Shown here in pieces: positions 14,716-30,239 of a stretch of DNA of 30,359 bases. The notes beneath the pieces were generated by a model that did no database searches, was not told where the DNA came from, and saw only the letters and a program-made list of their open reading frames with translations. A program made the position numbers and the translations under genes. This DNA comes from a virus, in IMG/VR virus record IMGVR_UViG_3300030451_001460, positions 1 to 30,359 of that record. The stretch is one strand, 5' to 3'. The number at the start of each line of letters is the position of its first letter. Position 1 is the first letter of the stretch.

Positions 14716-16125
14716 ATGGCAACTACACTAGAAGTATCATATTTTAATACGTTTTGGGTGAAAAGATTAAAAAATCTTACACAATATCAAGATAGAGAAG
14801 GTGATGGATCTGTAGCTAATCAATTAGGTGGAATAACTACAGGTACACCTGATCCAACTACTGGAGCAGGATATGTTGATTCTAATGTATTTGAAGATTG
14901 GTTTGTTGAAGAATCTAGAATACAAGGTGGTTTTAATAATACTAGTGTAGACTTTGGTAACAAAGCGTATATTGTAGAAGAAGAAGAAAAACAAACTAGA
15001 AGACAAAACGCTTTAATATACTCAGGAGTATATAATGCTAAAAATGGTATTAATAATAGTAATCAATTTCCAATTGGTGAAGATATAACAAGAGCTGTTG
15101 ATCCAGCGTCTGGAAGTATACAAAAACTTTTTGCTGAAAATACTAATTTAATTATACTACAAGAAAGAAAAGTAAATAGAGCACCAATAGATAAAGATGT
15201 TATATTTACTCAAGAAGGTTTACCAGTAACAACAGATAGCACTCAAGTTATAGGAACACCTAGTGCTTTTGAAGGTAACTTTGGTATATCAAGAGATCCA
15301 GGATCATTTGCGGTATATGGTTATAATAAATATTTTACTGATAGAGATAGATCTGTAGTAATGCAGTTAGGACCTAATGGTTTAAATCCTATTTCTAATT
15401 ACGGTATGATAGATTATTTTAGAGATACTTTAAATAGAGGTGGTGAAATAACAGGTGGTTACGATGTATTTAATAAAAATTATGTTTTAACAATTAACAG
15501 TACTCCTAAACCAACAGTTGTGTTTGATGATATAATAAATGGTTGGGTTAGTTTTGTTAGTTATGTTCCACAGTTGATGACAAGTTCTCAAGGTGAATTT
15601 TATACATTTAAAAATAATGCAGTGTGGTTGCATTATGCTCCTACAGCTAGTTATAATAATTTTTATACAATTCAATATGAATCTAATGTACAATTTGTAT
15701 TTAACCCTGAGCCAACACGAACAAAAACATTTAAAACAATAAGTTATACTGGAAGTAATGGGTGGGAAGTAAGTAGTATTATTTCTGATTACACAGGTGT
15801 AGATACTAATCCACAACAACCAGTATTAGGAGATACAACTCATATTGATGAATCTGCAGAAATACTTAGTTATGATGAAGGATATTATACAGATCCTACT
15901 ACACAGATACAATATAGAGCTGGGTTTGATAGAAAACAAAATGTTTACTATGCTGCAATTAAAAATGCTTCTCAAACTTTAGCACAAGAAGTTGTAACTC
16001 CAGGGCAAACCGTAAGTGGTATAAAAGGTCAATACGCTGTAGTAACATTTAGTCAAGACAGCACAACAGATATAACCGGTGCCAAACAACTATTTAGTGT
16101 AGGTGCTGAGTTTAATACTAGATAA
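14716..16125 (+). CDS. Putative tail tube / stabilisation partner protein
   Basis: A 469-residue beta-rich protein directly after the large tail protein. Motifs that I associate with the same phage tail family are NALIYSGVYNAKNGINNSNQ, FAENTNLIILQERKVNRAPI, FAVYGYNKYFTDRDRSVVMQ, LNPISNYGMIDYFRDTL, GGYDVFNKNYVLTIN and VSGIKGQYAVVTFSQDS. Repeated four-strand units with a conserved aromatic and Gly pattern suggest a beta-propeller- or nozzle-like fold, as in T7 gp12 and P22 gp10 tail nozzle proteins; this is inference. There is no signal peptide, membrane segment or enzyme motif. The gene is 29 bases after the 1664-residue gene in another frame, so the pair may be two halves of one assembly. The start context is AATAATATATGGC without a Shine-Dalgarno sequence. 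The downstream GNAT-like gene starts 4 bases after its stop. Confidence 0.62.
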   Translation: MATTLEVSYFNTFWVKRLKNLTQYQDREGDGSVANQLGGITTGTPDPTTGAGYVDSNVFEDWFVEESRIQGGFNNTSVDFGNKAYIVEEEEKQTRRQNALIYSGVYNAKNGINNSNQFPIGEDITRAVDPASGSIQKLFAENTNLIILQERKVNRAPIDKDVIFTQEGLPVTTDSTQVIGTPSAFEGNFGISRDPGSFAVYGYNKYFTDRDRSVVMQLGPNGLNPISNYGMIDYFRDTLNRGGEITGGYDVFNKNYVLTINSTPKPTVVFDDIINGWVSFVSYVPQLMTSSQGEFYTFKNNAVWLHYAPTASYNNFYTIQYESNVQFVFNPEPTRTKTFKTISYTGSNGWEVSSIISDYTGVDTNPQQPVLGDTTHIDESAEILSYDEGYYTDPTTQIQYRAGFDRKQNVYYAAIKNASQTLAQEVVTPGQTVSGIKGQYAVVTFSQDSTTDITGAKQLFSVGAEFNTR

Positions 16126-18852: not shown

Positions 18853-21800
18853 ATGGCAGATAAAGATGAAATAGTAGGAACTGATAAATTTTGGGATCCT
18901 GCAATGATATTTACCAACTATGAACCTGAAGAAGAGGAAGAAGATGAGTCAATTGAAGATGTGATTTTTGGAAAAGGGTCTGCTGTGTTGCCTGCAATTG
19001 AAACACCGATAGGACCAATGCCTGTTGTTAAAGAAAATGATGATGTAATTATTCAATGGGTAGAAAACGAAGATGGAGGTAAATCTCCTGTTCCAGTACA
19101 AGTAGGTGACCCTGCTAAAAGTGAATTTTATCAACAAACACTTGAAGTAGTAAATGAGTTAAATGACATTCAACTAGAACCTATAATGCAAGGTACTACT
19201 GATGTTCCAGCTGGTAGATTAAAACATTATTTTCCAGATATTAAATTTGAAGATGTAGAATTAATTGATGTAGATAAAACTATTGCTCAAGTAGATAATG
19301 CGTTAGAAAATACTCCAGATATTTTAGTAGAAAAGAAGAAACTTGAAAGAAATTATTGGGAAGGTGAATATCCTACTGAAATTGTAACAAATCCATTAAC
19401 CTGGGAGGAACTTCAAATTATTAGAGAAGCAGATAAAAAAAGAGGAAAATATGGTCCTATTACTAAAGACGATATAGGCAGAGAAGGTTTTGTTCAAGAT
19501 GCTTTTGAAGATTTACCTATTGACGAACAAGCAATAGGTGAAATGATGTTTAATGTAGCAGAAAGAGATGCCTTTATAAACAAATATCATGATGAAATTC
19601 AGGCAGCAATTGCAGCGGGTGCTAACGTTAATGAAGCTATTAATAAAATTCTTTATGGAGACCTAATTGATTCAGACAGAATAAGTTTGTATAATATGGT
19701 GTATGAGCGTCAAGGTTTTCTTAATAAAGAAGATTTTGATTTATTTAACAGTAATCTTAGAGGTTTTACAAAAAAATTAGATCCAACTGGAGAATATTAT
19801 ATATATGAAGAAATAGCAGAAATAGATTATTTAGAAGACACGTTTACAGTAGATGAAAAAGCTTATGAATATATAAGAGATGCTATAGTTAAAAAATTTG
19901 ATTTTGCAGACTATGATACTTATGAAGAATATGTAGATGCTGTTGCTCAATATACTCAAACTCTTACAGCGATAGATCCATTAATGCAGCGAACAGTAAT
20001 AAATGCTAATTTAGTTTTAGCTAATGAAGCTAATGTAAAGTATTTAGAATTGCTTGATGAAGCTAGAAAAAACGGAGCATTAGATGATCCTAGAGCTTTA
20101 GAAAATTTAAACCAAGAGTATAGTAAATGGCAGCAAAATAGATATATGGAATTGTTAGATGGCAGTGACTATGAAGCTAGATCTCTTCAATATGAATTTG
20201 CTGTTCATCAAGTTTTAAAAGATTTATATGTAAGTTTTGGTAGAAGTAAAGATGATAGATATGCAGAATTAGATAAAGAATTAGCAGAGGGAAAAACATC
20301 AGAGTGGTGGTATAGAATTAGAAACACAGCTTCAAACTCTTACACTAAATGGAAACAAGGTTTAAGAGGATTAGGTATGAAACCTAGAGCTAGCCAGCAT
20401 GCTAAGTTTACCAGTGATGTTGAGACATTGAATGAGTTTGCAGAAGATATTGAAAAATATGATTTAGGTGACTATACCGTTCATCAACTTAGAGCTTGGT
20501 TAGACAATAATAAAGATGAATTAGGTGATGCTAAATATACTGTATTAAAACAACGTTTAGTCCCTTTATTTGACGGAAGAACTAAGATAGTTGGTGGTTA
20601 TGAAACGCTTGATGAACTTAACAAAAATCTAAACAAAACATTAGAGAGGAATACAAAGTATTTAGCGGAAAGTATAAATGCTAATATATTAGACAATGAA
20701 AGATTATCTTTAGTAGAGCAACTAGGAGACGATGATAGTATATTAGGATTAGTAGAAAGTATTATAGACCAATCAAACATGATATTTATGTTTAGTGGTA
20801 TGGCTTTAAAACAAACAAGAAATCCTTATGCTTATGGTATTGGTACAATATTAGATGCTTTAGGAACAGCAGATATTGTAGCTAAAACAATGTCTGGAGA
20901 TATGTGGGCTGTTTTAGATGGTAAGATTAAAGAAAGAGAAGGTGAAGATTATGTTCCTACAAGAGATGATTATTTAGCTGAATTAGAAGATCCTGATTCT
21001 ATTAATATGCTTGCTAATATGATTAGCACTGGTGTACAATTAGCAGGTGAAAGATTTTCATTAGGTAAAATATTAAAATATGGTGAAGTAGGTAGAAGAA
21101 GAGTTGCCTCTATACTAAGAGGTCAATTTAAAAAATACCTATATACAGTACCAGTGATACTAGGAGCTAGTCAATTATCTGGTTTACAAGAATATCTTGT
21201 TGAAGGAACTCAAGGTTTAATATCAGATATAAATCAAAAATATCAAATTGGTGGAAATAGAGGAACTATATTTGATGCTGTACAACAAGGTAAATTTGAT
21301 TATGAAGGAGCTAAACAAGGAAAAAAAATAGGTCAATTTTTACCAGTCGCTGGAGCGATAGTTAATCAATCATACATAGAATTAACTCAAATATCTGAAA
21401 TAGTTGTATCAAGATTTAATCAAAATAGTAATGCAGCTGCTAATGAAGCTTTTTATAACCAAGCATTAGAAAAAATAAGATTAGATATTAAAAACAAAAA
21501 AATAACGCCTGAACAAGGAAATGAAGCTATTGATATAATTTCTCACTATAGAAATATTGGTTTAAAAATACCTAAAAATTTAGATGGTAGAAAAAGAGGA
21601 AGATTAATAAGACTTTTAGTTGAGAAAAAAAATTTAGAAGAAGAAATAAATTCAATTAATGATAAAGATTTAACTGTAGATCAAAGATTAAAATTAGCTG
21701 AAACCTCAGCAGAAATACAACTTATTATCGCTGATACTAAAGCAAAAGAAGAATATGTTAAACAAGTTGGAAATGTTTTAGATATAATTAATGAAAGCGA

Positions 21801-24800
21801 GAATAGTAATGTAAAAGTTATACGTTCAAGAAATGCTGATGGAATTGAAAAACAAAGACAAAAACTTAATAAAGAAGGTTGGAAAATAGCTGCGTCAAAA
21901 GGTTTAAGTACTAATTACGGTACAATATTTCAAAAAGGTGATCAACAAGTAATTCTTTTAAATGATCAAGAAATATTAAAAGACGGCGCGATAAACACAG
22001 CTGCTCATGAATTTTTACATGCAGTACTTTGGAACACTGTTAAAAATAGTAAAGGAACAGCGTTATCATTAGGTAATAATTTATTAGAATATTTAAATGA
22101 AGTTGATACTAGTTTACTTAAAGATTCTGAATTAGCGACTAGAATACAAGCTTATAAAGATGATCCTAATGTAACAAGCGAACAACAAGCAGAAGAGGTG
22201 TTAACTTTATTTTCAGAAGCTTTATTAGATGGAGCAATTGCTGAGTCTGCTTTTGATGGTAATTTTGGTCAAAGATTAGGAGATTTATTTACAAGAATAT
22301 TACAAACATTAGGTTTTTCTAGTGATATTAGATTTGACACCGGTAGAGATGTATATAAATTTGTAAAAGGATTTAATGAGAGTATTAAAAAAGGTAGATT
22401 TACCGCAGCGCAAAAGAAAGTATTTGAACAAGGAGCAGAAGGTAAATTAATTAAAAGAAAATATACTACTCAAGAAATGCGTGACCGTGATGCTGCAGTA
22501 GAAAAATCTAGTAAAAAACTTACAGAACTAACTAATGAATATAAAGATGGTAATTTTGATAATGTAGAAGATTTAACTGTTCAATATCAAAAAACCGGTA
22601 AAGATGCTTTAAAAAGATGGGCTGCTTCAAAAGGTGTTACTATTAATCTAGGTAATCCACAAGTTGATAAAGAAGTTACAAGTCTTTTAAATAAAGAGTT
22701 TGATAGTTTTACAAGAAACTTTGATTCTAGTAAAGCAGAAGCTTCTACTTACATGGAAAATATTGCAAAACGTATTGGTCCTGAAATAGTAAAAGAAGCA
22801 ACTAGAAAAGGTAAACAAGTTAGTCAAGATGTATTAACTGAAAAAGGTGTATCACCAGAAGTGTCAGTTCAACCAGACATAGATCAAAAGCAAGCACCTA
22901 CAGGACAAAGAGCGAAAGTATTTCCTAATTCTGTAAAAGTAATAGCAGATAATATAACAGGTGAAACAAGAGGTGAGCAAATAGCAATGCTTAAAAACGA
23001 TATACAAGAAGCTATATTAAGAGTAGGTACAAATCCTAAAGCAGTTGCTAAATACATAGTAGAAAAAACTAAAACTAAAGAATATAGAAAACTTATTAAA
23101 GATAAGTTAGGTGCGTTTGGTAGTCAAGAGTATATTGATAATGTAAACAAATTATTTAATAATACTAACTTTATTAAATCTATACCGGTTGCTAATATTA
23201 AAAGAAGATTTGGTAAACTGTTTGGTATAAAGCAAATAGGTACTACTCCTACTATTAAAATTACAGATGGTAAGCGTACTGATTTTAAGAAACAAGTTTT
23301 TAAAATACCTGCAGTATCACAAGCTAAACTAAACAAAGTAAAACAATACTTTTTAGCAGGTGAAAAACGTCATCAATCATTAATGAGTATAATTGGTGAA
23401 GGTATTGCGGTAGAAGCAATGCAAGAATTAAGAGCTGATACACAGTTTATGAATGAGTTACAAAATAGATTAGATTTTAAAAAATCTAATTTAAGTGCTC
23501 AGGATTTTATGCAAGAAGTAGAATTTAATCTTGATAAAAGAAACTTAGAAGACACATCGTTAGATGTAGTTAAGGCGAATAAAAAAAGACAAAGAAGTTT
23601 TCAAGAAGTTGGATTAAAAACAGCGGCTAGATCTACAATGCGACAGGTAGCGGGAGATAACGCTGTGTTTAATTATAAAAATATAAAAGACAGTCAAAAA
23701 AGTGCTAGAAGAACAGGTGCTATTATAATGATCCATAGATTTGGAAAAGACTTTCAAAAAACAGGTAACTATGGAAATAAAGAAAGTATTTATAAAAATA
23801 AAGCAGAGTTTAATAAAGATGTATTTGAAACACCTTTAACTAAAGATGAAATAACATTATTAAATAAATATAATATACCATTAGTTACAAGAAAGGGTAA
23901 AACATACTATGATAAATCACAAAGCCAAACAGCTTTTGAACTTGGTGTTGATGAACAAATTATGGTTGATGGTAAGCCTAAATCTGTGTTACAATTAGCT
24001 AGAGCAGAACAAACATCATATAAATTCTTAAGTCCAGGTCAAGCTAGAAGAAGACTAACTAATACAGAGTTTACAGAGTTACAAGAAGCTAAAATTAGAG
24101 TACTTAAAAATATTGCAAAAATGATTGAGGCAGACTTAGCAGTAGACCCAGCATTAAAAAATTATTGGGCTGCTTGGTTAAATCAGTCAGGTGACAATGT
24201 AGTTCACCCAGTTAGATCATTAGCTCCAGTAGAGTTTTTTGAAACACGTAAAGGAGAAAAAGTAGCTGAGCATACTTTACCTGCAAACCAAGTAGGTACT
24301 ATGATAATGAGAATGGCTATAGATAACAAAGTTGATGATAACTTTGAGTTTATTGAAAAAGATTATTTTCAAGGTTCTATTTTAGAAAGAGATGATAATA
24401 AATTAAAAGGCGAAGGATATACATACAAAGCTGATATGCCTGGTATTTTCTTTGATATAAAAAATCCTACTACTTGGATGCGTTATGTTGATAGAATGGT
24501 TAACAATGGTAAAAGTGGAGGAATAAATCTCAATAATATACTTGTTAAGAAAGATGGTAAAGTTATGACATTAGCTGAATCATTAGGTTTACCTCTTACA
24601 AAAAGAGCTATTCCAGGTTTAATAAGATATCAAAATAATTTATTATACGATGTGTTTAGAGGGGAAATGACTATTGAAGAAGCTCGAGCTAGATTAGAAG
24701 TTGCAGAAAATACAGGAATAAAAGAAGCAGAAAATATACAAGTAATATACAATGGTAAATTCTTAGCGCCAGGTGTATTACCCGGGGATTCTACGCCAGA

Positions 24801-27606
24801 GTATTCCAAACAAGTTCAAGAAAATAGTTTAGAAACTAGAGTAAACGCTTTTAAAGAAAATAAGAAAAGAAAAGGTATAAGTGTATTTGATTTTGACGAT
24901 ACACTAGCTAAGACAAAAGAAAAAGTTATAGTCATAATGCCTAATGGCAAGCGTAGTAAAATAAGTGCTAGTCAATTTGCAATTAAAGCAGAGTCATTAA
25001 AAGAAAGAGGAGCAGAGTTTGATTTTAGTGAATTTGATAAAGTATCTAAAAGTACTGCTGAAGGACCACTAGCTGATCTTGCTAGAAAACGTCAAGGTAA
25101 ATTCGGTAGCGGTGACATATTTGTATTAACTGCTAGACCACAAGCATCAGCAGAATCTATTAAAGAGTTTTTAGATGGTATTGGAATAAATATACCGCTT
25201 GAAAATATTACAGGATTGTCAGATGGTTCACCACAAGCTAAAGTTGATTGGATGTTAAACAAAACTGCGGAAGGGTATAATGATTTTTATTTTGCAGATG
25301 ATTCATTAGCTAATGTAAATAGTGTAAAAAATATATTAGATGCTATTGATGTTAAAAACGAAGTTTACCAAGCTAAAGCAAGTAAGAAAAAAGATTTAGA
25401 TAAAGACTTTAACGAAATGTTAGAGTACGCTACAGGAAAAGAAGCATTTAAAACATATTCTAATGCTAGAGCAAGATTAGAAGGAGCTCAAAAAGACGCT
25501 GGTTTATTTAAAAGATTTTTACGTCAATTCCAAATAACTGCTTCTGCAGAAGATTTTTTAGGATTAACATATGCGTTCTTAGGAAAAGGTGAACAAGGTA
25601 GTAGAAATATGAGGTGGATTTATGACAACTTATATGGTCTATATTCTAAAGCTGAGCAAGAATTATTATCAGCTAGAGTTTCTGTATCTAATGATTTTGC
25701 TGCTTTACGAGCTAAGTTTCCTTCATTAAAAGGAAAAAAGTTTAGTTTTAAAAATCCTTTATTGCAATCAATAGGTGTTGGACCTTATAATAAATCTCAA
25801 GCTGTTAGAGTTTATTTATGGAATAAACAAGGTATGGAAATACCTGGAATGTCTAAAACAGATATTAAAAGGTTAGTAAAAGCTGTAGAGTCTGATCCTG
25901 AGTTAAATGTATTTGCAGACGAATTACAGTTGATAAACAAAACTCAAACTTATCCTAAACCAGATACTAATTGGTTAGCAGGTACTATTAAAGATGATGT
26001 ATTAAGAGGTATTGATACAGAATTTAGAAGTAAATTAATGGCTGAGTTTGACGCTAATGTAAAAATAATATTCAGCGATAAAAATTTAAATAAAATACAA
26101 GCTTTATTTGGAACTAAATTTAGAGAAGCTTTAGAAGATTCTTTACGTAGAATGAAGTCAGGTAGTAATAGACCTGTTTATATAGGTGGTGGCTCACGTA
26201 TAGTTAATGAAATGTTAGACTATATGAACGCTTCTGTTGGTGTTACTATGTTCTTAAATATGAGATCTGGTTTACTTCAGTTGATTTCAAATGTAAATTT
26301 TGTAAATTGGGGTGATAATAATATATATAACGCTGCTAAAGCTTTTTCAAATCAGAAACAATATTGGAAAGATGTTGTTTATTTAATGAACTCAGACTAC
26401 TTAGTAAACAGACGTGATGGTTTAAAAATAAATGTAAATGAAGCTGAACTAGTAGATGCAGGTAGAAAAGGTGGATTTAAAGGTGTATTATCTTATTTAC
26501 TAGATAAAGGTTTTATTATTACAAGAACAGTGGATAGTTTAGCAATAGCAACAGGTGGAGCTACGTTTTATAGAAATAGAGTTCAAACTTATATAAAACA
26601 AGGAATGACTCAAACAGAAGCTGAGACACAGGCTTTTAGAGATTTTTATGATATTGCAGAAGAAACTCAACAGTCTAGTAATCCAGCTAAAATATCACAA
26701 CAGCAAGCTAGTTTAGCAGGTCGTTTTATATTATCATTTCAAAACGTTACAATGCAGTACAATCGTGTAACTAAAAAAGCTGTATTAGATTTATATAATA
26801 GACGTAGAAGACCTGGACAAACTCAAAGAGAAGCTGATCTTAGTAATATATCTAAAATTATATATTACACTACTATGCAAAACTTGTTGTTCAACGGTCT
26901 ACAAAATACTTTATTTGCTGCATTATTTGAAGATGATGAATTAGATGAGTCAGAAATAGATTCTACAGTAAATGGTATGCTTGATTCATTATTATTTGGA
27001 CTTGGTTTTGGTGGTGCTGTTATTTCAACAGTTAAAAATGTATTAATGGTAGTTGCTACTGAATCTGAAAAGAAATCACCAGACTATGAAGAAGCTGTAT
27101 TTGAATTAGCTAATATATCTCCAGTACTAGATATAAAAGTACGTAAATTTAGAACAGCCGGTAAAACATTTTCATGGAACAGAAAAGAAATAGCTAGAAG
27201 AGGTTGGAGTATAGATAACCCAGCTTATTTAGCAGTAGCACAATTAGTTTCAGCAACTTTTAATGCACCAATAGATAGAGTACTAAGAAAAATGATGAAT
27301 GTAGCTCAAGCTTTAGACGCTGAAGTACAAACATGGCAAAGAGTAGCATTGTTTTTAGGTTGGACAGGTTGGAACTTAGATCTTCCTTATTGGGGTAGAC
27401 AAAGTACTGTAAGAAAAGAAGCTGAAGAAGATGCTAGATTAGAAGCTGCTTACAAAAGAGAGTTTGGTAGATTAAAACGTGGTGGATATAGAAGAAGACC
27501 TATGACTAAAGGAAAACCTAAAGGTAAATTAGGCGTAGATTATATTGAAGTAAAAAGACCAAACGGTAAAATTGAATATTGGTTAACACCAGAAAACACT
27601 GATTAA
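18853..27606 (+). CDS. Giant polyvalent virion protein: metallopeptidase + HAD phosphatase + C-terminal polyvalent domain
   Basis: A 2917-residue protein, nearly 30% of the window. Domains in order: a helical N-terminal region with an acidic start (residues 1-560); a hydrophobic stretch near 761-783 (KYLYTVPVILGASQL); a zinc-metallopeptidase domain with HEFLH at 1052-1056 and candidate third-ligand glutamates at 1114-1115 or 1122; a long helical region; a HAD-family domain with all four motifs, DFDDT at 2013-2017, Thr in VLTAR at 2093, Lys 2130 and FADDS with Asp 2149-2150; and a C-terminal region whose TGGATFYRNR, EETQQSS and QQQASLAGRFILSFQN (about 2563-2640) resembles domains of large polyvalent proteins. 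Further hydrophobic stretches sit at ~2677-2692 and 2709-2735. Polyvalent proteins are known to be delivered with phage or plasmid DNA and to act early in the new cell. Delivery here is inferred from position next to gp14-like genes. The C-terminus is basic. Confidence 0.75.
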   Translation: MADKDEIVGTDKFWDPAMIFTNYEPEEEEEDESIEDVIFGKGSAVLPAIETPIGPMPVVKENDDVIIQWVENEDGGKSPVPVQVGDPAKSEFYQQTLEVVNELNDIQLEPIMQGTTDVPAGRLKHYFPDIKFEDVELIDVDKTIAQVDNALENTPDILVEKKKLERNYWEGEYPTEIVTNPLTWEELQIIREADKKRGKYGPITKDDIGREGFVQDAFEDLPIDEQAIGEMMFNVAERDAFINKYHDEIQAAIAAGANVNEAINKILYGDLIDSDRISLYNMVYERQGFLNKEDFDLFNSNLRGFTKKLDPTGEYYIYEEIAEIDYLEDTFTVDEKAYEYIRDAIVKKFDFADYDTYEEYVDAVAQYTQTLTAIDPLMQRTVINANLVLANEANVKYLELLDEARKNGALDDPRALENLNQEYSKWQQNRYMELLDGSDYEARSLQYEFAVHQVLKDLYVSFGRSKDDRYAELDKELAEGKTSEWWYRIRNTASNSYTKWKQGLRGLGMKPRASQHAKFTSDVETLNEFAEDIEKYDLGDYTVHQLRAWLDNNKDELGDAKYTVLKQRLVPLFDGRTKIVGGYETLDELNKNLNKTLERNTKYLAESINANILDNERLSLVEQLGDDDSILGLVESIIDQSNMIFMFSGMALKQTRNPYAYGIGTILDALGTADIVAKTMSGDMWAVLDGKIKEREGEDYVPTRDDYLAELEDPDSINMLANMISTGVQLAGERFSLGKILKYGEVGRRRVASILRGQFKKYLYTVPVILGASQLSGLQEYLVEGTQGLISDINQKYQIGGNRGTIFDAVQQGKFDYEGAKQGKKIGQFLPVAGAIVNQSYIELTQISEIVVSRFNQNSNAAANEAFYNQALEKIRLDIKNKKITPEQGNEAIDIISHYRNIGLKIPKNLDGRKRGRLIRLLVEKKNLEEEINSINDKDLTVDQRLKLAETSAEIQLIIADTKAKEEYVKQVGNVLDIINESENSNVKVIRSRNADGIEKQRQKLNKEGWKIAASKGLSTNYGTIFQKGDQQVILLNDQEILKDGAINTAAHEFLHAVLWNTVKNSKGTALSLGNNLLEYLNEVDTSLLKDSELATRIQAYKDDPNVTSEQQAEEVLTLFSEALLDGAIAESAFDGNFGQRLGDLFTRILQTLGFSSDIRFDTGRDVYKFVKGFNESIKKGRFTAAQKKVFEQGAEGKLIKRKYTTQEMRDRDAAVEKSSKKLTELTNEYKDGNFDNVEDLTVQYQKTGKDALKRWAASKGVTINLGNPQVDKEVTSLLNKEFDSFTRNFDSSKAEASTYMENIAKRIGPEIVKEATRKGKQVSQDVLTEKGVSPEVSVQPDIDQKQAPTGQRAKVFPNSVKVIADNITGETRGEQIAMLKNDIQEAILRVGTNPKAVAKYIVEKTKTKEYRKLIKDKLGAFGSQEYIDNVNKLFNNTNFIKSIPVANIKRRFGKLFGIKQIGTTPTIKITDGKRTDFKKQVFKIPAVSQAKLNKVKQYFLAGEKRHQSLMSIIGEGIAVEAMQELRADTQFMNELQNRLDFKKSNLSAQDFMQEVEFNLDKRNLEDTSLDVVKANKKRQRSFQEVGLKTAARSTMRQVAGDNAVFNYKNIKDSQKSARRTGAIIMIHRFGKDFQKTGNYGNKESIYKNKAEFNKDVFETPLTKDEITLLNKYNIPLVTRKGKTYYDKSQSQTAFELGVDEQIMVDGKPKSVLQLARAEQTSYKFLSPGQARRRLTNTEFTELQEAKIRVLKNIAKMIEADLAVDPALKNYWAAWLNQSGDNVVHPVRSLAPVEFFETRKGEKVAEHTLPANQVGTMIMRMAIDNKVDDNFEFIEKDYFQGSILERDDNKLKGEGYTYKADMPGIFFDIKNPTTWMRYVDRMVNNGKSGGINLNNILVKKDGKVMTLAESLGLPLTKRAIPGLIRYQNNLLYDVFRGEMTIEEARARLEVAENTGIKEAENIQVIYNGKFLAPGVLPGDSTPEYSKQVQENSLETRVNAFKENKKRKGISVFDFDDTLAKTKEKVIVIMPNGKRSKISASQFAIKAESLKERGAEFDFSEFDKVSKSTAEGPLADLARKRQGKFGSGDIFVLTARPQASAESIKEFLDGIGINIPLENITGLSDGSPQAKVDWMLNKTAEGYNDFYFADDSLANVNSVKNILDAIDVKNEVYQAKASKKKDLDKDFNEMLEYATGKEAFKTYSNARARLEGAQKDAGLFKRFLRQFQITASAEDFLGLTYAFLGKGEQGSRNMRWIYDNLYGLYSKAEQELLSARVSVSNDFAALRAKFPSLKGKKFSFKNPLLQSIGVGPYNKSQAVRVYLWNKQGMEIPGMSKTDIKRLVKAVESDPELNVFADELQLINKTQTYPKPDTNWLAGTIKDDVLRGIDTEFRSKLMAEFDANVKIIFSDKNLNKIQALFGTKFREALEDSLRRMKSGSNRPVYIGGGSRIVNEMLDYMNASVGVTMFLNMRSGLLQLISNVNFVNWGDNNIYNAAKAFSNQKQYWKDVVYLMNSDYLVNRRDGLKINVNEAELVDAGRKGGFKGVLSYLLDKGFIITRTVDSLAIATGGATFYRNRVQTYIKQGMTQTEAETQAFRDFYDIAEETQQSSNPAKISQQQASLAGRFILSFQNVTMQYNRVTKKAVLDLYNRRRRPGQTQREADLSNISKIIYYTTMQNLLFNGLQNTLFAALFEDDELDESEIDSTVNGMLDSLLFGLGFGGAVISTVKNVLMVVATESEKKSPDYEEAVFELANISPVLDIKVRKFRTAGKTFSWNRKEIARRGWSIDNPAYLAVAQLVSATFNAPIDRVLRKMMNVAQALDAEVQTWQRVALFLGWTGWNLDLPYWGRQSTVRKEAEEDARLEAAYKREFGRLKRGGYRRRPMTKGKPKGKLGVDYIEVKRPNGKIEYWLTPENTD

Positions 27607-27608
27607 TT

Positions 27609-27686
27609 ATGAAAAAATTTATTGACAAGCTGCAGCAGGCTTGGAACAAACTGCTGTATAAATTAATGTTTAAAAAATATAAATAA
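27609..27686 (+). CDS. 25-residue cationic amphipathic peptide
   Basis: A tiny ORF beginning 2 bases after the giant gene's stop (GATTAATTATG). It ends 1 base before the ATG of the next gene, so it fills the gap exactly and keeps the operon's tight spacing. It starts MKKFIDKLQQAWNKLLYK and ends in a Lys/Tyr-rich tail: about eight lysines against one acidic residue, with Phe, Ile, Leu, Trp and Met spaced to give a hydrophobic face on a helix. CTG and CAG codons are over-represented compared with its AT-rich neighbours. It has no signal peptide. It could be a membrane-active peptide in the lysis or envelope cassette, or a translational leader. It is short, so coding is uncertain. Confidence 0.45.
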   Translation: MKKFIDKLQQAWNKLLYKLMFKKYK

Positions 27687-27687
27687 A

Positions 27688-27921
27688 ATGAAAAAAACTA
27701 TTTTAATCTTATTACTATTAATTTCTTTCAGTGTATCTTCACAAGAGATCAGAAAGAAATGTATTACAATTACAGAAGAAAAATTACCTAACTATAAAGT
27801 AAAAGTAATTAAAACTAATCACTGTGTAGAACCTAAAGAAATAACAATTAGATCTTATGTTATTACAGAGTGGGAGAGAAAGAAAAGAAAAAAACGTAAA
27901 AAAAGAAAAAATGAAAAATGA
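27688..27921 (+). CDS. Small secreted protein with a polybasic tail
   Basis: A 77-residue protein. Residues 1-18 are a clear signal peptide (MKKTILILLLLISFSVSS) cut before Gln-Glu, the usual Bacteroidota pattern. There is no lipobox cysteine, so it should be released to the periplasm rather than lipidated. The mature part has two cysteines (C25 and C46), which could form one disulfide, around a short beta-like segment (KVKVIKTNHCVEPKEITIRS). It ends in a run of Arg and Lys (ERKKRKKRKKRKNEK). Such a tail could bind lipopolysaccharide, peptidoglycan or DNA. No family recognised. Its stop overlaps the ATG of the next gene (ATGA), so the two are translationally coupled. A-rich runs near the end are a possible slippage site, but alternate frames hit stops quickly. 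Confidence 0.68.
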   Translation: MKKTILILLLLISFSVSSQEIRKKCITITEEKLPNYKVKVIKTNHCVEPKEITIRSYVITEWERKKRKKRKKRKNEK

Positions 27922-29093
27922 AACAACTAATCCTTGTCCTCTTTGCGGCGGTTATTGCGGTATCTGCTAATGCACAAGAAAAGAAAAAGTTATTTAAAGA
28001 TTTTTTTAAGTATAGTACCCTGTATGTAGCAGGTGATATTAAAAATCCTAAAGAAAATTTACCTAATTATTTTGTAAGAACAAATCCAGACGGTGGACTG
28101 TATGATGTTCCTATTGTAGTAGACGGAACACAGTATCATGACTATGATTATAAGTATGGTTTTGGTATTCGTAAAATAGCAAGATTTGATTATGAAGTTA
28201 AAGGTAAATTATACTATGATGGGACTGAATCTAACGTAGGTATGACAGCTCCTAATTCATCTATTAAAGGTTTTGAATATGTATTTCATACTGAAAAAGA
28301 AAGATCCAGAGATGATGTATTTCAAAATCATCGATATTTCTTAAAACATAGCGGTAAATACCATATGGTGAAGGTAGAAAGCAGAAAACAAGGGAAAGTT
28401 AACTTCAATTACAAGTCTGCAGAGCTTAGAGCTAAACTACCTGTTGGCAAAAAATTAACACTTTCAGCTGGTGCTATATATCGTACACATGAAAGACCTT
28501 ATGGTTATAATCCTGTAGAAATATGGTTAAATGAAACTGACGCTAATGGTTATGCTGTTAATCCATGGTATACACTAGGTTTTTATTATGGGTATGATGA
28601 TATATATTATACACAACAAGATCAGTTTGGTAATGAAGTTTCTGATTGGTATTGGATAAATCCTGAAGGCGAAACTGTAGCTTATACAGATTTACAATTT
28701 AGACAAACAGTATTTACAGATCTTATGAATCGTTTTAATAATGAAGCATGGGCTGAGATCGATGCATTCGGTGTTATATCACCTGTGCTCGGTTTTGACT
28801 ATTATCATTATAAAAATAATTTCTGGTTACATGCTTATGGGTCTTATTTATTACCATACCACGATTATGTAAAAGGCGACGAGGCTTTTAGTTATCACAA
28901 TAGAAACAATTGGGGTCTTGGTGGATTACGTGAAGATGCAGAAAAAGAACAATGGGAGGATTTTCAAACAGGTATAGTATTTGGTTGGAAACTTAGCAAA
29001 AGCATAGGAGTATTTGTAGAAGGCGAATACACTAAGTTTTGGGATAGTAAAATATATAATAGTTCAGTTGGTTTAAATATAACACTTAAATAA
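27918..29093 (+). CDS. Secreted outer-membrane beta-barrel-like protein
   Basis: A 391-residue protein with a clear signal peptide (MKQLILVLFAAVIAVSANA, cut before Gln20). The rest has no transmembrane helix but many aromatic- and glycine-rich strands of alternating polarity (YKYGFGIRKIARFDYEVKG, SAELRAKLPVGKKLTLSAGA, FWLHAYGSYLLPYHDY, GIVFGWKLSKSIGVFVEGEY). The C-terminus is a final strand (SSVGLNITLK), ending in Lys rather than the classical Phe. The pattern is that of a Bacteroidota outer-membrane beta-barrel. Charged, Tyr/Asp-rich loops (YDDIYYTQQDQFGNEVSDWYW) between strands look like surface loops. I recall similar proteins in marine phage contigs but cannot check this. A phage could use it to alter or block the host surface, for example against superinfection, or to weaken the outer membrane during lysis. 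It has no enzymatic motif. Confidence 0.65.
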   Translation: MKQLILVLFAAVIAVSANAQEKKKLFKDFFKYSTLYVAGDIKNPKENLPNYFVRTNPDGGLYDVPIVVDGTQYHDYDYKYGFGIRKIARFDYEVKGKLYYDGTESNVGMTAPNSSIKGFEYVFHTEKERSRDDVFQNHRYFLKHSGKYHMVKVESRKQGKVNFNYKSAELRAKLPVGKKLTLSAGAIYRTHERPYGYNPVEIWLNETDANGYAVNPWYTLGFYYGYDDIYYTQQDQFGNEVSDWYWINPEGETVAYTDLQFRQTVFTDLMNRFNNEAWAEIDAFGVISPVLGFDYYHYKNNFWLHAYGSYLLPYHDYVKGDEAFSYHNRNNWGLGGLREDAEKEQWEDFQTGIVFGWKLSKSIGVFVEGEYTKFWDSKIYNSSVGLNITLK

Positions 29094-29094
29094 A

Positions 29095-29379
29095 ATGGCA
29101 AAGCAAATAGGTGAAGATACTAAAGTAACGTTAGATCTTAAAACAATAGGCATGATTGTAACTTTTGTAATTATGCTAGCAGGTATGTGGTATACATTAC
29201 AAGCAGATATAGCACAAGCAAAAGAATTACCGGCACCTGTAATTGATAGAATAGAGTATGATCTAAAAGATGAGTTGATCCGTCAAACAATTATGGATAC
29301 TCAAGAAGATGTAGAAGAAATAAAAGAAACAATTGATAAGATAGATCAAAGACTGTACGAGATACAAAAAAATAGATAA
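29095..29379 (+). CDS. One-span membrane protein with C-terminal coiled coil (holin or spanin-like candidate)
   Basis: A 94-residue protein. A short polar N-terminus (MAKQIGEDTKVTLDLK) is followed by one membrane helix (residues ~17-37, IGMIVTFVIMLAGMWYTLQ), then an acidic, helical C-terminal arm with heptad spacing (TQEDVEEIKETIDKIDQRLY, residues ~69-88). There is no signal-peptidase site and no lipobox, so the helix should remain in the inner membrane with the coiled coil on the far side. Single-span holins and inner-membrane spanins have this plan, and its place in an envelope cassette agrees, but no sequence motif proves lysis function. It may instead anchor a partner such as the secreted barrel or the Trx-like protein. 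ATG is 1 base after the barrel's stop, and its own stop overlaps the ATG of the next gene (TAATG). Confidence 0.6.
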   Translation: MAKQIGEDTKVTLDLKTIGMIVTFVIMLAGMWYTLQADIAQAKELPAPVIDRIEYDLKDELIRQTIMDTQEDVEEIKETIDKIDQRLYEIQKNR

Positions 29380-29777
29380 TGAAATATTTAAATATAATTT
29401 TAATTTTAATATCATTTAATATGTCTGCTCAAGAGTGGATAAGTGATATTGATTTTGAAAATAAAATAAATGAAAAGCAAGCTTTTGGTGATGATCAAAC
29501 TTTACCTGTAATAGTAGAATTTTACGCTAAATTTAACGATGCAAATAAATTTGATCAATGGCAAGAACTTACTAATGTAGTATATTATAGAGCAGATATA
29601 GCTAAATGTCCTGTAGCTAAAAAGAAATATAAAGTCCGCATGGCACCTACTTTAATTGTATTTAAAGATGGTATAAAAGAAGAAGTTTGGAAAGCAGGTT
29701 TAGATTTAGAATTACCTACAAACTTAGAAGAAATACAAGAAACAATAAACGAAATAAATAACGCAAGTAAATTTTAA
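29379..29777 (+). CDS. Secreted thioredoxin-fold protein lacking CXXC
   Basis: A 132-residue protein. Residues 1-17 are a signal peptide (MKYLNIILILISFNMSA) cut before Gln18, so it acts in the periplasm. The thioredoxin fold shows in the order of parts: strand LPVIVEFYA (42-50), the active-site loop KFNDANKF (51-58) where WCxxC would sit, helix, strand NVVYYRADIAK (66-76), then cis-proline element MAPTLIVFKDG (88-98) with Pro90. Both catalytic cysteines are missing; one cysteine remains at residue 77 (KCPVA). It probably keeps the fold but not disulfide chemistry, and may act as a binding protein or chaperone for the envelope cassette. The ATG overlaps the previous stop (TAATG), and the next gene is 3 bases downstream. 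Confidence 0.72.
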   Translation: MKYLNIILILISFNMSAQEWISDIDFENKINEKQAFGDDQTLPVIVEFYAKFNDANKFDQWQELTNVVYYRADIAKCPVAKKKYKVRMAPTLIVFKDGIKEEVWKAGLDLELPTNLEEIQETINEINNASKF

Positions 29778-29780
29778 ATT

Positions 29781-30239
29781 ATGAGTAATCACATTAAAAA
29801 ATTCACACAAGAACAAAAAGATGCTGCTAGAGTAGGAGCTGAAGGTGGATTAGGTTTAGTAGCTGGAACAATTGGTAGAATAGGTAAAGCATTTGGTAAT
29901 GCAGCTAAACAATATTTAAAGGGATTTAAAAAACCACAACCTAAAAGTACTTTTAAACCTTTTCATAGAGACGGTAGAATTTATGATAGAGCAGCTATTA
30001 ATGACGCTTTTAAAAAGAGGTTTGCAAAAGGAGCAGTACCAAATAAAGAAATTTTGAAAAAGAATAAACCAAGTGCAAAAGACATGGGTTTGACAGATGC
30101 AAGTAAAATTAATAGAGGTGCTCCAAATCCTAGCCAATGGACTAATTTTGGCAGACCAGATGCTGTATCTAGTATGCGTAATGTTATGAAAAAAAGTGGA
30201 CAGTATCCAAAATCAGATCCTTTCCGAGGTGGTAAATAA
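29781..30239 (+). CDS. Basic phage protein of unknown function (152 aa)
   Basis: No family recognised. The first ~45 residues have a short helix (HIKKFTQEQKDAARVGAEGG) and a Gly/Ala-rich, weakly hydrophobic segment (LGLVAGTIGRIGKAFGNAAK), then a polybasic linker (KGFKKPQPKSTFKPF). The rest is Lys/Asn/Pro-rich and lacks cysteine, with a repeated short pattern of charged helices (INDAFKKRFAKGAVPNKEI). It has no signal peptide; the Gly/Ala segment is too short for a confident membrane helix. The strongly basic composition would suit nucleic-acid or membrane-surface binding, or a packaged internal protein. It ends overlapping the ATG of the next gene by one base (TAATG). Confidence 0.58.
   Translation: MSNHIKKFTQEQKDAARVGAEGGLGLVAGTIGRIGKAFGNAAKQYLKGFKKPQPKSTFKPFHRDGRIYDRAAINDAFKKRFAKGAVPNKEILKKNKPSAKDMGLTDASKINRGAPNPSQWTNFGRPDAVSSMRNVMKKSGQYPKSDPFRGGK

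Follow-up and report, generated by a model that had tools for sequence, protein, structure and literature searches.

The breach of the outer membrane is a general part of lysis in Gram-negative hosts. A spanin was not found in 91 of 677 phages of Gram-negative bacteria (about 13%), including Bacteroides and Croceibacter phages, and Kongari et al. (2018) named an outer-membrane protein in the role of the o-spanin only as an untested possibility (PMC6139136). Disruptins are short amphipathic peptides whose diversity makes them hard to predict, and how other phages without spanins proceed has been described as open (PMC12819732). For this open question of how spanin-less phages breach the outer membrane, we present two specific candidates, a gene trio and a peptide of 25 aa, both of which are widespread among marine phages that have not been cultured.

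The window, i.e., the whole stretch of 30,359 bp that was analyzed, is the linear virus contig IMGVR_UViG_3300030451_001460. The gene at position 14716 encodes a crAssvirus muzzle domain (PF25729, E 2.1e-13; Pfam), and PHROG matches were obtained for TerL (phrog_6681) and the portal protein (phrog_6547), both of which may not be exclusive to Crassvirales, as well as for several further structural genes. The muzzle domain together with these PHROG matches identifies the window, on sequence grounds, as a fragment of an uncultured marine crAss-like phage. Bacteroidota are the known hosts of Crassvirales (PMC10136315), and a Bacteroidota host is presumed for the window phage. A giant protein of 2917 aa, which is conserved in most crAss-like relatives, is encoded at positions 18853-27606. 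It lacks a Pfam match, contains the motifs HEFLH (residue 1052) and DFDDT (residue 2013), and could be a virion protein that is ejected and combines peptidase and HAD-like parts; a search of phage isolates returned no match. GroEL homologues and a GroES-like gene are present in relatives (L018:2271-4257; L364:13736-15001, with a phrog_5725 match of 1.1e-118 in L364).

Organization and conservation of the gene set

The genes downstream of the giant gene are the following.

27609..27686, plus strand: 25-aa cationic amphipathic peptide, net charge +7, disruptin-like candidate
27688..27921, plus strand: 77-aa secreted protein with a polybasic tail; two conserved Cys and a conserved Trp in an alignment of 28 distinct homologues
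27918..29093, plus strand: 391-aa predicted outer-membrane beta-barrel with signal peptide (AlphaFold2, Foldseek)
29095..29379, plus strand: 94-aa membrane protein with one N-terminal TM span and a coil, probably of i-spanin-like topology (alignment)
29379..29777, plus strand: 132-aa secreted thioredoxin-fold protein (PF00085), NxxN (N53, N56) in place of CxxC, cis-Pro P90 kept
29781..30239, plus strand: small basic protein of 152 aa, encoded by a linker gene that separates the thioredoxin-like gene from the endolysin; homologues upstream of M15 in L027, L048 and L066
30239..30358, plus strand: truncated ORF at the window edge that marks the place of the missing endolysin (M15 downstream in 59 of 60 relatives)

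The five tightly coupled genes of the original prediction (27609-29777) are all present at these positions, and both overlaps that it had recorded are exact, with ATGA joining the polybasic-tail gene to the barrel gene and TAATG joining the coil gene to the thioredoxin-like gene. The three predicted signal peptides were recovered and end with SSQE, ANAQE or MSAQE. The descriptions of the products likewise hold for the secreted protein with a polybasic tail, which extends across the 28 homologues, for the secreted barrel-like protein (signal peptide, AlphaFold2 beta-barrel), for the one-span coiled-coil membrane protein (TM span, 3-4 heptad) and for the secreted thioredoxin-like protein without CXXC (PF00085 match, CxxC absent). 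The cationic amphipathic peptide is confirmed in length and charge, and its amphipathicity is clear over the N-terminal two thirds only. No family match above the cut-off was obtained for the 77-aa protein in Pfam or PHROG.

The proposed co-occurrence of the genes is borne out by homologues in the same order in dozens of other marine phage contigs, the recurrent arrangement being giant gene, 25-aa peptide, 77-aa secreted protein, barrel, coil and thioredoxin-like gene. The 52 aligned loci of the peptide ORF differ by 3914 synonymous versus 1822 non-synonymous codon differences. Because the order is kept in dozens of contigs and the changes in the 25-aa ORF are mostly synonymous, the arrangement must be regarded as far beyond chance. 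Relatives of the barrel are encoded on 151 stretches in IMG/VR, and the 80 barrel loci that were kept contain the coil gene in 75, the thioredoxin-like gene in 75 and the giant gene in 62 cases. A second sample was drawn through the coil gene in order to escape the bias of barrel-based sampling, and here the barrel was found in 74 of 79 and the thioredoxin-like gene in 79 of 79 loci, counted without dereplication; this second sample includes contigs of 164 and 180 kb. Altogether, the trio of barrel, coil and thioredoxin-like gene is present in hundreds of marine phage fragments.

Nearly all coil genes are separated by -11 to +10 bp from the thioredoxin-like gene. One example of reshuffling is a rearranged clade (L017, L018, L036, L062 and others) with the order coil, thioredoxin-like gene, barrel. 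Homologue distances, calculated from non-independent pairs, run in step for coil and thioredoxin-like protein (rho 0.72) and for barrel and M15 endolysin (rho 0.66), and less so for the barrel versus the coil or thioredoxin-like protein (rho 0.43-0.49). This pattern suggests two co-inherited units, coil plus thioredoxin-like gene and barrel plus M15 gene, rather than one fixed complex. About 13 of the 80 barrel loci also harbor, within about 3 kb of the barrel, a VanZ/DUF2279-like gene for a small exported protein or lipoprotein (L031:13069-13437 and others).

Linkage to endolysin and holin genes

The original prediction had seen no endolysin and no recognizable lysin. This absence is an artefact, because the fragment of 30,359 bp stops where its relatives encode the enzyme: an M15 endolysin follows the homologue of the last ORF of the window in the 59 of 60 relatives listed above, often 29-36 bp past its matched part, and is missing from the window only because the contig ends. 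One example is L006, whose M15 peptidase (PF08291, E 1.7e-16; endolysin phrog_894, 1.3e-32) is located two genes past the thioredoxin-like gene, separated from it by the homologue of the truncated ORF. Of 56 unique loci that contain both the giant gene and the trio, 45 have an endolysin no more than 4.5 kb downstream, compared with 40 of 462 control stretches taken away from the trio. An endolysin-adjacent position is hence presumed for the cassette of the window itself.

The linkage extends to relatives with a different architecture. In the rearranged relatives (L017, L018, L062 and others) the trio abuts an M15 or Amidase_2 gene (L062: phrog_822, 1.7e-54), located behind the barrel, and is accompanied by a holin (phrog_3427, 2.9e-12). 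In L304, a phage of 164 kb, the genes directly behind the trio encode a peptidoglycan-binding amidase and a holin. The near-complete 63-kb relative G001 contains exactly one M15 gene, which adjoins the cassette, and its holin (phrog_3427, 1.3e-17) is located close to TerL about 30 kb away. The canonical cluster of holin, endolysin and spanin genes is thus not what we observe: the endolysin is just outside the window and the holin of G001 is distant. In other clades (L334, L350 and others) a recognized endolysin is absent within about 5 kb of the trio, and the M15 genes of G017 and G019 are some 20-30 kb away from it, which indicates that the trio also occurs outside lysis cassettes. A family scan of the neighbors of 14 trio loci without recognized endolysin yielded, among the matches listed, only one peptidoglycan-binding domain and DUF5675 as candidates for a lysis function. 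The latter (PF18925, phrog_1501) is located near the trio in L285, L305 and L309, where the endolysin is unrecognized, and is possibly an unrecognized lysis enzyme.

The 25-aa peptide, with the motif DK[LI]QxxWNxLLYKLMFK[KN]Y, has a near-invariant C-terminal half in the 52 aligned loci. W12, N13, Y17, K18, L19, M20, F21 and K22 are invariant in 43 distinct peptide sequences with mainly synonymous differences, an invariance that has to be read in the light of the fact that part of the motif also served as a selection criterion. A DNA pattern scan of viral contigs detected its coding pattern on at least 119 stretches, and many of the occurrences are behind the giant gene. In L205, L208 and L217 the peptide gene is located between a one-span gene of 49-52 aa and the M15 endolysin, and it shares an ATGA overlap with the start of the endolysin gene. 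In L208, the one-span gene of 52 aa is related to the holin family phrog_920 (7e-5) and is accompanied by an M15 gene of phrog_894 (1.8e-21), the gene past the endolysin of L217 matches phrog_3427, and L221 and L240 have the same spacing of peptide and endolysin according to distance data. The alternative that the peptide is a programmed extension of the giant gene was rejected on account of its own start codon and its occurrence at other sites (L065, L208). The coil gene and the barrel were not found in the contigs of the peptide-endolysin operon type (G020-G025), which are fragments and were searched for the barrel without a positive control. The best candidate for the outer-membrane disruptor of these operons is thus, by elimination, the peptide.

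The hydrophobic moment of residues 3-20 is reached by 0.12% of the shuffles, compared with 5.9% for the whole peptide and 37% for residues 8-25, so that only the N-terminal two thirds can be called clearly amphipathic. A short cationic amphipathic helix and an encoding lysis operon (L208, L205, L217) are two of the attributes of disruptins, and both were found here, so that the peptide may act like one of them.

The unusual lysis module that had been proposed is supported by the endolysin linkage and the presence of the peptide in holin-endolysin operons, but it does not lack a lysin; the other proposals, superinfection exclusion or surface remodelling, neither gain nor lose support. The module idea had been made dependent on the absence of an ordinary holin-endolysin-spanin set and on conserved linkage; an ordinary holin and an ordinary endolysin do exist, but an ordinary spanin was not found and the linkage is strongly conserved. 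It is this linkage that points to a role of the cassette in lysis.

Proposed crossing of the outer membrane

The AlphaFold2 model of the barrel, calculated from 70 homologues, represents a beta-barrel of the outer-membrane type (pLDDT 79.5, pTM 0.70). Its Foldseek matches are the barrels of NanC, autotransporters and OmpG with E values from 1e-6 to 1e-4 and TM-scores below 0.4 by query length, and a sequence family match was not obtained. On the basis of the significant E values and the low TM-scores, the predicted protein can be assigned fairly securely to the barrel class, but not to a family. The thioredoxin-like protein exceeds the Pfam cut-off for PF00085 (E 1.8e-5), and its model (AlphaFold2, pLDDT 84.9) retrieves thioredoxins with Foldseek (E about 1e-6). 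N53 and N56 are present in 23 of 23 close homologues, and in a wider set of 54 homologues N53 is found in 44, N56 in 50 and the cis-proline P90 in all. The asparagines at the CxxC positions in combination with the retained cis-proline indicate that the protein is redox-dead and that its fold probably serves binding.

We regard it as rather probable that the window harbors an endolysin-linked lysis region whose products breach the outer membrane without a lipoprotein spanin, via a bridge formed by the trio and a disruptin-like peptide. A holin, which is encoded elsewhere in the relatives, would open the inner membrane, and the M15 enzyme would cut the peptidoglycan. The outer membrane would then be breached by two systems in place of a classical lipoprotein spanin. 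A spanin-like bridge across the periplasm would consist of the barrel in the outer membrane, the coil protein with its anchor in the inner membrane and, placed between these two, the redox-dead thioredoxin-fold protein, and the cationic amphipathic peptide would act in the manner of a disruptin. A physical interaction of the three proteins is assumed in this scheme; a fixed three-protein complex is not favored, because the barrel diverges out of step with the coil and thioredoxin-like proteins. The more specific proposal of a new spanin-like system, in which the barrel replaces the o-spanin, the NxxN thioredoxin-fold protein serves as adaptor to the coil and the disruptin-like peptide acts as a backup, widespread in uncultured marine phages, is put forward only tentatively.

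The trio loci without adjacent endolysin keep other envelope roles alive, such as superinfection exclusion or receptor masking. A late phage barrel would block the adsorption of other phages, the coil and thioredoxin-like proteins would help to place or fold it, and the endolysin linkage would reflect shared late expression. A secreted barrel is what one would expect for this function, its homologues recombine independently of the coil and thioredoxin-like genes, and the trio is located away from a recognized endolysin in some clades. However, the barrel is highly conserved across very different phages (33 invariant columns in an alignment of 70 sequences), and exclusion proteins should be variable. 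It diverges, moreover, most in step with the endolysin, and the position of the peptide in lysis operons is left unexplained. We consider this explanation unlikely.

The coil protein, for which we found at least 569 relatives, has its predicted TM span at about residues 18-37, and its residues 62 to 90, 29 in number, form a regular 3-4 heptad (I62, I66, T69, V73, I76, I80, I83, L87, I90). It could accordingly be a plain i-spanin with a lipoprotein partner elsewhere, and the barrel and the thioredoxin-like protein would then be unrelated to it, serving for instance envelope maintenance or the folding of host surface proteins. The i-spanin-like layout and the location at the side of the endolysin are in agreement with a two-component spanin, as is a Pro-rich lipoprotein gene between barrel and coil in L006, L008, L009 and L015. 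Matches to known families are weak (phrog_1009, 2.5e-5; the best spanin match, the Rz-like phrog_739, reaches only 0.061), and the periplasmic part of about 57 aa is short for an i-spanin that spans the periplasm. In a six-frame scan, the coding strand of the window proved free of lipobox ORFs, and no ORF of the window combines a lipoprotein signal with a C-terminal TM span as in unimolecular spanins. Of 132 trio loci, 83 lack a lipoprotein gene within 2.5 kb of the coil gene; in the other 49 the lipoprotein could be an ordinary o-spanin, but these lipoproteins are of several unrelated kinds and occupy varied positions. The coil gene occurs, moreover, together with the barrel and the thioredoxin-like gene in 74 of 79 loci. 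An ordinary two-component spanin is therefore an improbable explanation, and the absence of a lipoprotein from the window and from the 83 loci favors an outer-membrane disruption of the non-lipoprotein type. A function of the coil protein as holin was rejected, since the relatives carry a separate one. In large phages a second one-span coil protein (L307:7090-7422, phrog_20984 in L307; L309:6347-6670) is encoded near a lipoprotein that has the motif ISLDGESFDPxERYA, and the two could be a true i-spanin/o-spanin pair additional to the trio.

That the peptide, the barrel and the others belong with the 2917-aa giant protein as virion-associated genes that act on the envelope at entry and not at exit is highly improbable: crAss-like members do have the cassette immediately behind the giant gene, but in many relatives a giant homologue is not near the trio, the peptide is found in holin-endolysin operons without the giant gene, and the signal peptides suggest that the infected cell exports the proteins.

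Comparison with known systems

A tblastn search of 50,697 phage isolate records, with five barrels as queries and a 25-aa peptide query that is near the limit of tblastn and of the low-complexity filter, returned no homologues of the barrel, the coil protein or the peptide, and the thioredoxin-like protein obtained only one weak match in Erythrobacter phage XM05. The sole matches in genome collections are three contigs (L162-L164) of the Woesearchaeota MAG RS366 from the Red Sea, which carry the phage gene family with 84-94% identity and are most likely phage contigs that were binned into this MAG by mistake. No paper describing the outer-membrane gene set was found in the open-access papers that were searched. 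Lysis cassettes are known in themselves; the composition of the outer-membrane part of this one is, judging from these searches, undescribed. The peptide alone provides a new lead to a lysis peptide of Bacteroidota phages, and its motif is searchable.

The M15 endolysin gene that adjoins the cassette in the relatives corresponds to those of other phages (PF08291, phrog_894) and shows nothing unusual. The barrel shares with the phage-encoded outer-membrane proteins in BFVD, i.e., porin and OmpW-like barrels, that it is a secreted phage-encoded beta-barrel, but it has only one close structural relative among them (A0A516LKJ4, E 8e-26, 25% identity). With thioredoxin (PF00085) the window protein has the fold, the cis-proline and the Pfam match in common; it differs in the replacement of both catalytic cysteines (NxxN), in its secretion and in a C-terminus that is mostly SKF or SQF. 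The peptide resembles, by description, the phiKT-type disruptins (PMC12819732) as a short cationic amphipathic peptide encoded in the lysis operon of phages in which no spanin is evident, but it has only 25 aa and is very strongly conserved across many phages. Finally, the cassette resembles the two-component spanins Rz/Rz1 of lambda and PseT.3/PseT.2 of T4 in that a small inner-membrane protein, which has one span and a heptad coil in the periplasm, is encoded near the endolysin together with an exported partner, but its constant partner is a predicted barrel plus a thioredoxin-fold protein instead of an outer-membrane lipoprotein.
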